A stretch of 36,169 bases of DNA from Candidatus Thorarchaeota archaeon. Lineage in GTDB: Archaea; Asgardarchaeota; Thorarchaeia; Thorarchaeales; Thorarchaeaceae. A model generated the notes under the pieces. That model saw only the letters and a program-made list of their open reading frames with translations. It did not search any database and had not been told where the DNA came from. Below are positions 15,614 through 21,783 of this stretch, piece by piece. Numbering within the stretch: position 1 is the stretch's first letter; each line of letters opens with the position of its first letter. Both the position numbers and the translations under genes were made by a program. The stretch covers positions 1-36,169 of the forward strand of contig JAUWOU010000017.1 of NCBI GenBank assembly GCA_030612005.1. The letters run 5' to 3'.

Positions 15614-15991
15614 TCAACACTCGCAATCGTCGCCCTTGGCCACAACGATTTTGACTTTTACTTTGATATCTTCTGCAATATCCCCAAAGGCTTGAAGGAA
15701 ATACCTTGAAGATTCAGCTAATCCTTTTTCTCCAGCAGGTGTCAAATTGTAAACAATCTGTCTTCCTATTTTCTCTCCTGCAATGAAACCCCCGTTTTTC
15801 AACTCTTTCAACGCAGGATAGATTGTACCTGGGGTTGGTTTTGTTCCTCTCCTTGTAGCGATTTTCTCAGCTATCTGTTGCCCATTCATTTCTTCTCTGT
15901 CAAGTTCCCAAAGGATCTGAAATGTAAGAAGTCCTCTCATGTCGCAACAATCAGGTGGACAACATGGTGCAACTTCGATCTTCTTACTCAT
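15614..15991 (-). CDS. PadR-family regulator with Cys clusters, likely metalloid or metal sensor
   Basis: A winged-helix repressor of 125 residues. The PadR core is at about 18-92 (LLTFQILWELDREEMNGQQI, then KPTPGTIYPALKELKNGGFI and a wing). Unusually it carries vicinal cysteines at both ends: Cys10, Cys11, Cys15 and Cys16 in the N-terminal CCPPDCC, and Cys123 and Cys125 in the C-terminal CEC. Such clusters suit binding of As(III) or a soft metal. It is divergent from an ArsM-like methyltransferase unit with repeated operator-like boxes between them, a role normally filled by ArsR-type repressors. TATA spacing suggests an almost leaderless transcript. The ligand is inference; the PadR fold is clear. 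Confidence 0.85.
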   Translation of the reverse strand: MSKKIEVAPCCPPDCCDMRGLLTFQILWELDREEMNGQQIAEKIATRRGTKPTPGTIYPALKELKNGGFIAGEKIGRQIVYNLTPAGEKGLAESSRYFLQAFGDIAEDIKVKVKIVVAKGDDCEC

Positions 15992-15998
15992 ACTAATC

Positions 15999-16069
15999 TA
16001 TTGGGTGTCCGATACATTTAAATGTATATATAGGATGCCCAATACTAACAAATATTGGACACCCAATAT
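15999..16069. promoter_or_regulatory. Divergent promoter with three operator-like boxes (padR / arsM unit)
   Basis: Three related boxes are present: TATTGGGTGTCC (15999-16010), GGATGCCCAATA (16033-16044; its complement matches box 1 at 10 of 12 positions) and the dyad ATATTGGACACCCAATAT (16052-16069), whose right half repeats box 1 in reverse orientation. Between boxes 1 and 2 lies a perfect 16-base palindrome, ATACATTTAAATGTAT (16012-16027), running into TATATATA, which can serve as TATA box in both directions. Box 1 would cover the leftward start site, and boxes 2 and 3 the rightward one. This is a textbook layout for repression of both the regulator and its target. Confidence 0.65.
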
Positions 16070-16082
16070 AGTTGGTGATTGA

Positions 16083-16217
16083 ATGACTGACGTAAAACCA
16101 TGTGAAGAGAAATGGAATCTACAACTCAAAAGTTGCGAGCCAGTTCTGAAAATCCAATCGTTCGGGTGCAATGATAATCTAGAAAATACTAATCCGATGA
16201 AAACGGTGATTGTATGA
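16083..16217 (+). CDS. 44-residue peptide with evenly spaced cysteines, coupled to the methyltransferase
   Basis: A short frame easily missed because of its size. ATG 16083 is preceded by GGTGA four bases upstream. The peptide has 44 residues with Cys7, Cys18 and Cys29, spaced exactly eleven apart, and a mixed charged sequence beginning MTDVKPCEEKW. Its TGA stop (16215-16217) overlaps the methyltransferase ATG (16214-16216) in an ATGA junction, which implies translational coupling. It directly follows the operator boxes, so it is the first frame of the transcript. It may be a three-thiol metalloid-binding peptide that delivers substrate, or a leader that only couples translation. No homologue is recognised. 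Confidence 0.6.
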   Translation: MTDVKPCEEKWNLQLKSCEPVLKIQSFGCNDNLENTNPMKTVIV

Positions 16218-17029
16218 CAGAAATGAAAAAAGTAAGTGAAATGGAACCTGATGAAATAAAGAAAGCAGTAAGAGACGCATATTCCAAAGTGGCCACTGGA
16301 GAAAATCCTGAAACCGGAATCATATCTAGCTGCTGTGATGAACCAGCACAGAGCCAATCAAGTTGTTGTGGTCCAGCTCCCGAAGCAGCCAAGATTACAA
16401 GAGTGAACCTTGCAGACGCACTTGGATACGATACTGAAGGAATGCCAATATCTGCAACCGAATCATTTGCAGGTTGTGGAAATCCTGTTGCGCTTGCCAG
16501 TTTAAAGGAAGGTGAAATTGTACTTGATCTCGGAAGCGGTGCAGGACTCGATATGTTTGTTGCTAGTAAGAAAGTTGGTGAAATAGGTAAAGTCATCGGT
16601 GTTGATATGACCCCTGCGATGATTGAGAAAGCCAAGAAGAATGCTAAAGAGCTTGGAATAACTAACGTAGAATTTCGGTTTGGCGATATTGAGGATATGC
16701 CTGTGGACGATAATTCAGTTGATGTAGTGATCAGTAATTGTGTGATCAATCTGGCTCCTAACAAAGGCAAGGTGTTTCAAGAAGCTTTCCGTGTTTTGAA
16801 ACCTGGTGGTCGTGTTATGGTGTCAGATATCGTTCTCTCCAAACCATTGCCAAAGGAAGTTAGTGATGAGGTTGTGACATACACAGGTTGCATTGGTGGT
16901 GCCATACTTGATAAGGAGTATCTACAGCACATGCGCGATGCAGGATTCGCTGATGCTAAGATTGCAAGTAAAGCTGGTGAAAGTATTCATGGCGCTTACA
17001 GCGCTTATGTCACAGGCACCAAGCCCTGA
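16214..17029 (+). CDS. arsM: Arsenite methyltransferase-like SAM enzyme (ArsM family)
   Basis: A class I SAM methyltransferase of 271 residues with ArsM features. These are ESFAGCGNP (Cys88), the SAM motif VLDLGSGAG (103-111), GVDMTP, the late SNCVINL with Cys176, FRVLKPGGR, and GCIGGA with Cys226. The three cysteines Cys88, Cys176 and Cys226 correspond to the As(III)-binding set known in ArsM enzymes, which methylate arsenite to mono-, di- and trimethyl forms. The N-terminal insert has two extra vicinal pairs, Cys40-Cys41 and Cys51-Cys52. It is translationally coupled to the 44-residue Cys peptide and controlled, by position, by the divergent PadR. Confidence 0.88.
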   Translation: MTEMKKVSEMEPDEIKKAVRDAYSKVATGENPETGIISSCCDEPAQSQSSCCGPAPEAAKITRVNLADALGYDTEGMPISATESFAGCGNPVALASLKEGEIVLDLGSGAGLDMFVASKKVGEIGKVIGVDMTPAMIEKAKKNAKELGITNVEFRFGDIEDMPVDDNSVDVVISNCVINLAPNKGKVFQEAFRVLKPGGRVMVSDIVLSKPLPKEVSDEVVTYTGCIGGAILDKEYLQHMRDAGFADAKIASKAGESIHGAYSAYVTGTKP

Positions 17030-17046: not shown

Positions 17047-17856
17047 ATGGAAAATGAAGTCAAAATAGAAATTGAAATGGGTCATGTCAAGATTCCAGTT
17101 AATGTGAATGGTCAAGGCCCATTCAACTTTGTTTTGGATACAGGTGCTTCTTTCACAACACTCTCTACGAGATTAGCTGATAAGCTTGGTATTGAATCAC
17201 GCAAAGACGATCGACCTGATGCACGTGGAGTAGGTGGTGGAGTTCCCACTCTTTTTGCCGATGCTGAAATTGGTGTAGGGTCACTTGTGTTCGACAAAGA
17301 CGAAGTCTACGTTCTTGATCTTGATGCTATCCTTCGAGTTCCGGGTAGTCGTGATGGCGCATTAGGTTATACCACTCTCAAGCATTGCACCATGTCACTA
17401 AGTTATAGCAAACAAAATTTGAAGTTACACAAGGGTAAATCTTCTCGAGACCTAGATTGGATTCCATTTGAATACCTCAACGATTCACATCTCATTGGCA
17501 TCCCTGCATATATCAACGGCAAAGGACCTCATAACTTCGTACTTGATACAGGTGCAGGAAATACCGTAGTAACACCCGAAATGGCTACTAAGTTAGGTCT
17601 TAATCCTCAAGCTGTTCAGGGTATTGCACGTGGTGTGGGTGGAGATGTTCAGCTTGAACTTGCTCCAGTTGACACTCTGTCAGTTGGATCTGTTCAGATT
17701 TCCAGTAGTCAAGTAGTTGTTATCGATTTGAGTAAGGTTTCTCCAAAAGGAAAATTAATTGAAAATGGAATTATTGGGTATGATTTTCTAAAGAACTTTG
17801 AAACGGTCATTGATTATCCCCAAAAGAAACTTTCATTCATAGACGAACGTAGCTAG
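17047..17856 (+). CDS. Single-chain tandem retropepsin-like aspartic protease
   Basis: A 269-residue protein with two similar halves, each a clan AA retropepsin-type domain. Half one has VLDTGASFTTLS (Asp31) and the later GALGY motif (104-108). Half two has VLDTGAGNTVVT (Asp167) and GIIGY (241-245). Each half thus has the catalytic D-T-G-A and the following hydrophobic-hydrophobic-Gly element of the fold. Retroviral-type proteases are homodimers; here both lobes sit on one chain, the arrangement seen in pepsin. No signal peptide is seen, so it acts inside the cell. It follows the methyltransferase by 17 bases on the same strand; a functional link to metalloid handling is not evident. Confidence 0.87.
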   Translation: MENEVKIEIEMGHVKIPVNVNGQGPFNFVLDTGASFTTLSTRLADKLGIESRKDDRPDARGVGGGVPTLFADAEIGVGSLVFDKDEVYVLDLDAILRVPGSRDGALGYTTLKHCTMSLSYSKQNLKLHKGKSSRDLDWIPFEYLNDSHLIGIPAYINGKGPHNFVLDTGAGNTVVTPEMATKLGLNPQAVQGIARGVGGDVQLELAPVDTLSVGSVQISSSQVVVIDLSKVSPKGKLIENGIIGYDFLKNFETVIDYPQKKLSFIDERS

Positions 17857-20361: not shown

Positions 20362-20553
20362 AAGCTTGTATCTTCGTATCCATATCATAAGGATTACTGT
20401 TAAGCAAAGTACTTTGGTACGGAGGTAGGACTAGAGTAACTAACATCTGAAAAATCTGGACGAAGTTGGATATTGATCATTTATCGGTCTAAGATAACAG
20501 TTCGAGATTTGAATGTCCTTATATCTTCCAGTCAATACTACATTCTGACTCTC

Positions 20554-21783
20554 ATGTTGGTCCATAAAGCCTACAGGTATGAACTCGATCCCAACAACCA
20601 GCAAAGAACCTCCCTTCTTCAACATGCTGGAATTGCACGTTTCACTTACAACTGGGGGCTTGACCAGAGGATCAAATTGCACAAGAACAATCAAGGTAAT
20701 GACCGTTTCACAGACCCTATGAAACAACACAAACTTCTGAACCGCCTGAAAAAGACTCAATTCCCATGGATGTATGAATGTTCCAAATGTGCACCTCAAG
20801 AATCTCTAAGAGACCTCGGTCGAGCTTTCAAGAACTTCCGACGTGGATTGAAGGAAGGAAAGAAAATTGGATTTCCAAGGTTCAAGAGTAAGGGCATGCA
20901 CGACAGTTTCAGACTATATGGAATAATAAGGTTTGAAGGGCGAAATCTCCAACTTCCAAGGATTGGAAAGATACGAATCAAGGAAAGAAGAAGAATCTAT
21001 TACAAAGGCAGGATACTATCAGTAACTGTGAGAAGGAGAGCGAACAGATGGTTTGTATCGGTCAATGTGGAAGAAGATATCGCAGACCCGAAACCCATCG
21101 TCAGTTATGCAGTAGGAGTAGACCTTGGGATAAAGACCCTAGCAACTCTTTCTGATGGAATCACATTTGTTAATCCATGCGCCCTAGGAAGTCAAATCAA
21201 GAAGTTGAGGAAACTATCAAAGAGTCTGTCCAGAAAGAAGAAAGGAAGTAGGAACCGAGAGAAGGCCAAACTCAGACTCGCCAGGATGCACCTGAAATTT
21301 TTCAACGTTCGACAGGATACACTTCACAAGTTGACTACATATCTTGCCAAGAGCCACAGTAAGATAGTGATCGAAAATCTGGGAGTGTCGGGAATGATGA
21401 AGAACCGAAGGTTGGCAAGGGCAATCTCAGATGTTGCAATGTACGAGTTCCGAAGACAGCTAGAGTACAAATGCCAGTGGTATGGTTCAAAGCTACATGT
21501 AGCAAAAAGAACGTTCCCTTCATCAAAGAGGTGTTCGAGCTGTGGACACAAGAAGAAGGAACTATCACTCTCAGAAAGAGAGTATGAATGTGAAGAGTGT
21601 GGATTGAAAATCGATAGGGACCTTAATGCCGCACTCAATCTAGTCACCGTCAGTTTGCCGGAGACTCTAAATGCCCGTGGAGAGGACGTAAGACGTAGCA
21701 AATCTTCTGGATTTGCAATGCAGATCTCGGTGAAGCAGGAACCGAAGTGGACCGATGGACCTAGCTGTCCAAGTTCGTCCTAG
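20554..21783 (+). CDS. tnpB: TnpB (IS200/IS605 family), solitary and apparently intact
   Basis: An RNA-guided nuclease of transposon origin, 409 residues from the ATG at 20554 (MLVHKAYRYELDPNNQQ, a usual TnpB start; in-frame TTG upstream is less likely). The N-terminal wedge/REC part is at about 1-175. RuvC residues are all present: Asp190 in GVDLGIKT, Glu274 in IVIENLG and Asp354 in IDRDLNAA. The zinc ribbon has Cys327, Cys330, Cys346 and Cys349. No tnpA transposase is nearby, so it cannot move by itself. In this family the guide RNA comes from the 3' end of the gene and the right end, which here would lie between about 21600 and 21850. Confidence 0.94.
   Translation: MLVHKAYRYELDPNNQQRTSLLQHAGIARFTYNWGLDQRIKLHKNNQGNDRFTDPMKQHKLLNRLKKTQFPWMYECSKCAPQESLRDLGRAFKNFRRGLKEGKKIGFPRFKSKGMHDSFRLYGIIRFEGRNLQLPRIGKIRIKERRRIYYKGRILSVTVRRRANRWFVSVNVEEDIADPKPIVSYAVGVDLGIKTLATLSDGITFVNPCALGSQIKKLRKLSKSLSRKKKGSRNREKAKLRLARMHLKFFNVRQDTLHKLTTYLAKSHSKIVIENLGVSGMMKNRRLARAISDVAMYEFRRQLEYKCQWYGSKLHVAKRTFPSSKRCSSCGHKKKELSLSEREYECEECGLKIDRDLNAALNLVTVSLPETLNARGEDVRRSKSSGFAMQISVKQEPKWTDGPSCPSSS

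Follow-up and report, generated by a model that had tools for sequence, protein, structure and literature searches.

A selected, cysteine-rich small open reading frame overlaps an arsenite methyltransferase gene in Thorarchaeota

The window analysed here is a 36,169-nucleotide stretch of Candidatus Thorarchaeota DNA (contig G000:C62) and, like the rest of our material, consists of MAG sequence in draft contigs. It carries a gene for a PadR-family repressor on the minus strand (15614-15991; Pfam PadR, 2e-10), divergent from a series of genes on the plus strand. These are an open reading frame (ORF) for a 44-residue cysteine-rich microprotein (16083-16217), an ArsM arsenite methyltransferase gene (16214-17029) and a gene for a two-domain clan-AA (retropepsin-like) aspartyl protease (17047-17856; Pfam Asp_protease_2, 3.8e-34). 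The protease gene starts 17 nt past ArsM and probably shares its operon in the genus. Every same-genus locus that extends this far has it after ArsM, whether the small ORF is present or absent. Near the operon, at 20473-21783, a long frame resembles by eye an IS200/IS605-type TnpB transposon protein (DRDLNAALN and CxxC motifs).

The small ORF translates as MTDVKPCEEKWNLQLKSCEPVLKIQSFGCNDNLENTNPMKTVIV, with Cys7, Cys18 and Cys29; SCEPVLK and IQSFGCNDNLENTNPMK would be among its tryptic peptides. A plus-strand Shine-Dalgarno (SD) sequence, GGTGAT (16074-16079), lies 3 nt before its ATG, and a second GGTGAT (16205-16210, plus strand), which serves ArsM, is located within the small ORF near its C-terminus. 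The two genes meet in an ATGA overlap, where the ArsM ATG at 16214 runs into the small-ORF stop codon TGA (16215-16217). The frame, the three cysteines, the ribosome-binding site and the overlap are thus all present as given in a preliminary description of this DNA.

Between the repressor gene and the small ORF are three palindromes, TATTGGGTGTCCGATA (15999-16014), TATAGGATGCCCAATA (16029-16044) and TATTGGACACCCAATA (16053-16068). The first and third match the operator consensus TATYGG-RYRY-CCRATA perfectly and the second has one mismatch. Shuffled sequences give 0.19 copies per window, which bears out the earlier impression of a strong operator region. Perfect matches in the whole assembly occur at this locus only, and a search for a PadR regulon elsewhere in the genome returned no second perfect operator, the one-mismatch site at C8:36709 being without a recognisable arsenic gene nearby. 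The A+T-rich TATA element or elements TTTAAATGTATATATA (16017-16032) probably constitute an archaeal promoter with a putative transcription start, given their sequence and the genus-wide conservation of CATTTAAATGTATATATAGG.

The repressor belongs to the Pfam PadR superfamily (41 bits, cut-off 27), and its match to the NCBIfam equivalog of Rv3488, a PadR metal sensor, is weak and below the cut-off (28.9 bits, cut-off 140). Two cysteine clusters are conserved, CCPPDCCDMRG at the N-terminus and DDCxC at the C-terminus. PadR adjoins ArsM in 16/16 same-genus loci, in the majority of same-family loci and also in f12, a second family of the phylum, and it is likely a metalloid-sensing repressor of the operon. 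Across Thorarchaeota and the second family the N-terminus CC(P/A)P(D/E)CCDMRG is nearly invariant and is usually accompanied by a C-terminal Cys pair. From their sequences, these divergent PadRs form a candidate metalloid-sensing subfamily with its own operator, TATTGG-RYRY-CCAATA. In two loci, L004 and L005, the C-terminal cysteines are altered, with GDDSTF and GDDSSC instead of DDCxC.

The downstream enzyme scores 305.5 bits against NCBIfam PRK11873 (cut-off 263). Its SFAGCGNP, ISNCVINL and TGCIGGA segments align to cysteines in the ArsM structures 5evj and 4kw7. ArsM uses three cysteines for iAs(III), which in CmArsM are Cys72, Cys174 and Cys224 (PMC3877260), and equivalents of all three catalytic-site positions are present here. 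The "ArsM-like enzyme" to which the small ORF had been said to be coupled is therefore an arsenite methyltransferase. Its N-terminal tail carries four additional cysteines (SCC...SCC).

An ArsM search of 47 family genomes yielded 16 loci of the same genus that have both PadR and ArsM; in one genome (G023) ArsM is divided between two contigs. In 13 of the 16 a small ORF occupies the equivalent position, between the PadR-controlled promoter and ArsM. These ORFs are 39, 40, 43, 44, 45, 46, 47 (six loci) or 53 codons long. The distance from the small-ORF start to the next start codon is 116, 128, 131, 134, 137 or 140 nucleotides and equals 2 mod 3 in 12 loci, where the next start in L006 and L012 is counted as that of an extra ArsM N-terminal copy (see below). 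An ATGA or GTGA overlap ends the small ORF in 11 of the 13; an in-frame TAG cuts the L008 ORF short, and that of L016 finishes upstream of ArsM. An SD of GGTGAT or a close variant occupies the same place in 11 of the 13. With leave-one-out profiles, ten of the 13 members score above all 1000 composition-preserving shuffles, and the small ORFs of L007, L014 and L016 are too divergent for certainty from sequence alone. A profile search of the 47 genomes gave no credible further copy of the peptide, its 13 strong matches being the profile's own members. Comparison of the 44-mer with Pfam and NCBIfam, ArsD and metallothionein profiles included, gave no family match; no report of the peptide was found in open-licence papers, and no obvious link was seen between the small ORF and the presence of an ACR3 efflux pump.

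The 13 ORFs, with the start and the last five codons removed, were compared with dinucleotide shuffles. Tests for selection omitted the C-terminal KTVIV, whose conservation is due in part to the ArsM SD that it encodes. Frame 0 contains no stops where 33 are expected (at least 18 in each of 2000 shuffles), and the other two frames contain 16 and 59, although this count is partly circular because the loci were picked as ORFs. Frame 0 also encodes 42 cysteines, compared with 16.5 +/- 3.5 in the shuffles; the other two frames encode 4 and 13. The circularity does not extend to the codon-model and simulation tests that follow. Codon models give an omega of 0.40 for the small ORF over 12 aligned loci and 0.59 over six ungapped 47-codon copies, with 2*delta lnL against omega=1 of 28.8 and 4.7, respectively; ArsM has an omega of 0.063. 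Alignment bias is not the cause of the value of 0.40, since omega came to 0.89-1.53 when 20 neutral simulations were re-aligned at the protein level.

The cysteine content was also compared with neutral simulations run on the same trees as the observed loci. The 12 aligned peptides contain 37 cysteines (11.6 +/- 5.2 under neutrality), and their best cysteine column, that of Cys29, is kept in 11 of 12 (neutral mean 3.9); none of 300 simulations reaches either value. In the six ungapped copies the cysteine count exceeds all 300 simulations and the best column exceeds 96% of them. At Cys29 the codon alternates between TGT and TGC among species, a mark of selection on the amino acid. On these comparisons, purifying selection on the peptide and selection on its cysteine content are well supported, and the product is a fast-evolving small protein kept by natural selection. 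The synonymous switching and the low omega agree with the coding potential predicted in the preliminary description, and the same-genus homologues that bear the ORF are free of frameshifts and maintain their cysteine number, where frameshifts or lost cysteines would have counted against it. A conserved frame, an omega below 1 beyond alignment bias and homologues at the same place mark a genuine conserved coding gene. We conclude that the frame at 16083-16217 is real and is very probably translated.

The arrangement of the cysteines is another matter. Each peptide carries two to five, with three in nine of 13 and only two in that of L008. The exact 11-residue spacing pointed out in the preliminary description is shared with one relative only (L007, Cys 6/17/28), and equal spacing of three cysteines arises by chance in ~3.6% of random placements; this spacing is therefore not the conserved feature. 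What the alignment indicates as conserved is the number of thiols together with the last cysteine of the aligned core. The other cysteines are not fixed in position, and a defined site is therefore not conserved.

Mapped on the ArsM tree, the small ORF occurs throughout the genus, its earliest branch (L016) included, indicating that it is ancestral to the genus and was lost at least twice, in L004/L005 and in L011. In these three loci only ~80 bp separate PadR from ArsM, and ArsM takes the promoter-proximal SD itself. PadR and ArsM are retained in all three genomes, so the peptide is facultative. The small ORF is absent from PadR-operator-ArsM loci outside the genus, including those of the second family. 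The L004/L005 lineage has an extra cysteine in the ArsM N-tail (a VDCSEG insert), which represents one event only. In another genus, one locus (L019, genome G006) has an unrelated-looking 48-codon ORF before ArsM, ending in GGRCCG and without significant homology to the ArsM N-tail; it is possibly a convergent gain.

The reading that we somewhat favour is that the small ORF encodes a disordered, thiol-rich microprotein that is translationally coupled to ArsM and would bind trivalent arsenic as a buffer or accessory. On this reading the small ORF opens an arsM operon under PadR control, and its leading position and the ATGA overlap mean that peptide and enzyme should be made together on release of the repressor. 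Its thiols, usually three, may bind As(III) or methylated trivalent arsenicals, so that the peptide could act in trans beside ArsM as a small buffer or accessory supplementing the enzyme's own Cys-rich N-tail. It might also hand arsenic over to ArsM, and the cell might benefit. AlphaFold2 models the 44-mer with a pLDDT of 53 and no secondary structure, consistent with a peptide that is probably disordered, although a model drawing on only 11 sequences is weak evidence. There is a precedent in AfArsR, in which a short disordered three-Cys peptide binds As(III) and becomes ordered on binding (PMC11212059). The preliminary description had proposed either a substrate-handing peptide or a metalloid buffer for ArsM. 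An obligate substrate carrier is hard to reconcile with at least two losses and with the lack of the small ORF outside the genus, and a facultative As(III) buffer or accessory would fit the distribution better.

Alternatively, the small ORF might act only in cis, with its translation bringing ribosomes to the overlapping ArsM start or tuning ArsM output (perhaps via Cys-tRNA supply) while the peptide itself is inert. We regard this as possible but unlikely. Such a role is consistent with the overlap in 11 of 13 loci, with the ArsM SD embedded in the small ORF and with the fast evolution of this ORF (omega 0.4-0.6). However, a pure coupler needs no cysteines, whereas these occur at about three times the neutral expectation and one cysteine column is kept with synonymous switching. 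Where the small ORF is lacking, ArsM starts directly from the promoter-proximal SD, and there is no run of Cys codons of the amino-acid attenuator type. In L008, L009 and L015 the ArsM SD is more paired than it is with shuffled upstream sequence, but the window's copy shows no such sequestration and the folding-energy z-score signal is absent in 11 of 13 loci. A reading based on RNA structure or attenuation was rejected because of this null result and the restriction of SD sequestration to those three loci.

A regulatory role is more doubtful still. Here the peptide thiols would take As(III) from PadR (CCPPDCC), or pass it to PadR, and so tune induction or reset repression. PadR is the other Cys-rich partner at the locus, and the two peptide-less loci L004 and L005 show changed PadR C-terminal cysteines as well. 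This is one coincident event, though: L011 lacks the peptide yet has a normal PadR, and family-wide the repressor and its cysteine motif occur without the peptide.

It is very improbable that the small ORF is a decaying tandem duplicate of the ArsM 5' end that is open by chance, even though ArsM N-tails with their thiols do get duplicated in this genus. In L006 and L012 an extra truncated ArsM N-terminal ORF with a CC motif (54 and 56 codons; offsets 284-448 and 220-390 after the PadR start) lies between the small ORF and ArsM. Over 90 nt the L006 copy shares 90% identity with the ArsM of its own locus; the L012 copy is more diverged, and the two copies are apparently separate or converted duplications. 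Small-ORF and ArsM starts also have GGTGATTGxATGACxGA in common, and a test for duplication of the start region was significant for L003, whose small-ORF start resembles its own ArsM start (p=0.002), and marginal for L006 and L007. Nevertheless, most small-ORF copies fail to beat shuffles against the ArsM N-tail HMM. A profile-profile comparison of the small ORF with the ArsM N-tail is not significant (hhalign probability 0.75%), and the window's small ORF does not clearly exceed shuffles against the N-tail HMM (82/1000 reach its score). Neutral decay is excluded by the omega and the cysteine excess, and the frame persists in 13 lineages without premature loss. Birth by duplication followed by new selection is possible. 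Finally, that the frame is a chance opening in the leader region and no gene is scarcely credible, for although it is short and matches no Pfam or NCBIfam family, its homologues, stop-free frame, profile recovery, omega and cysteine excess all speak against this.

Returning to the favoured reading of an arsenic-binding microprotein, we tentatively consider a broader version, itself rather less probable, in which the small ORFs represent a lineage-specific family of Asgard arsenic-handling microproteins. The disordered peptide would fold on As(III) and act in trans with ArsM, selection would maintain how many thiols each chain has and not where most of them lie, and lineages would supply the ArsM transcript with extra thiols in different ways, such as a new cistron or duplicated ArsM N-tails. 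Most archaeal microproteins go unrecognised, and for few of them is there a function that can be tested. Here the genetic partner is clear (ArsM) and trivalent arsenic is a likely ligand; three genomes, which stand for two losses, serve as natural knock-outs, and the peptide is short enough to be synthesised. If the reading is true, small thiol peptides can be recruited by arsenic methylation systems, and the number of cysteines can be kept under selection even as their positions drift.

Several known systems resemble the proposed microprotein in part. ArsD, which serves the ArsA ATPase, is folded and has ~120 residues, whereas the peptide here is probably a disordered 44-mer beside ArsM without a family match or a fixed Cys motif. 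Both are small arsenic-operon proteins that might hand arsenic over to a partner enzyme, and ArsD is among the proteins with three-Cys As(III) sites (PMC11212059). Like metallothioneins and other small Cys-rich metal-binding peptides, the microprotein is small, Cys-enriched, probably disordered when free and fast-evolving except at its cysteines. Unlike them, it has only two to five cysteines, is tied by overlap to a metalloid methyltransferase gene and matches no family; in place of a dense CxC/CC/CxxC array, the window's copy has three cysteines in 44 residues, spaced by 11. The Cys-rich N-tail of ArsM is likewise a thiol-rich segment next door in the same operon, with truncated copies in L006 and L012, but the small ORF is a separate cistron without detectable homology to it. 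In the As(III)-binding loop of AfArsR the three cysteines lie in one short segment of an ArsR repressor and not in a free peptide; the likeness is in the three cysteines, the short disordered stretch and the order that As(III) induces in it (PMC11212059).
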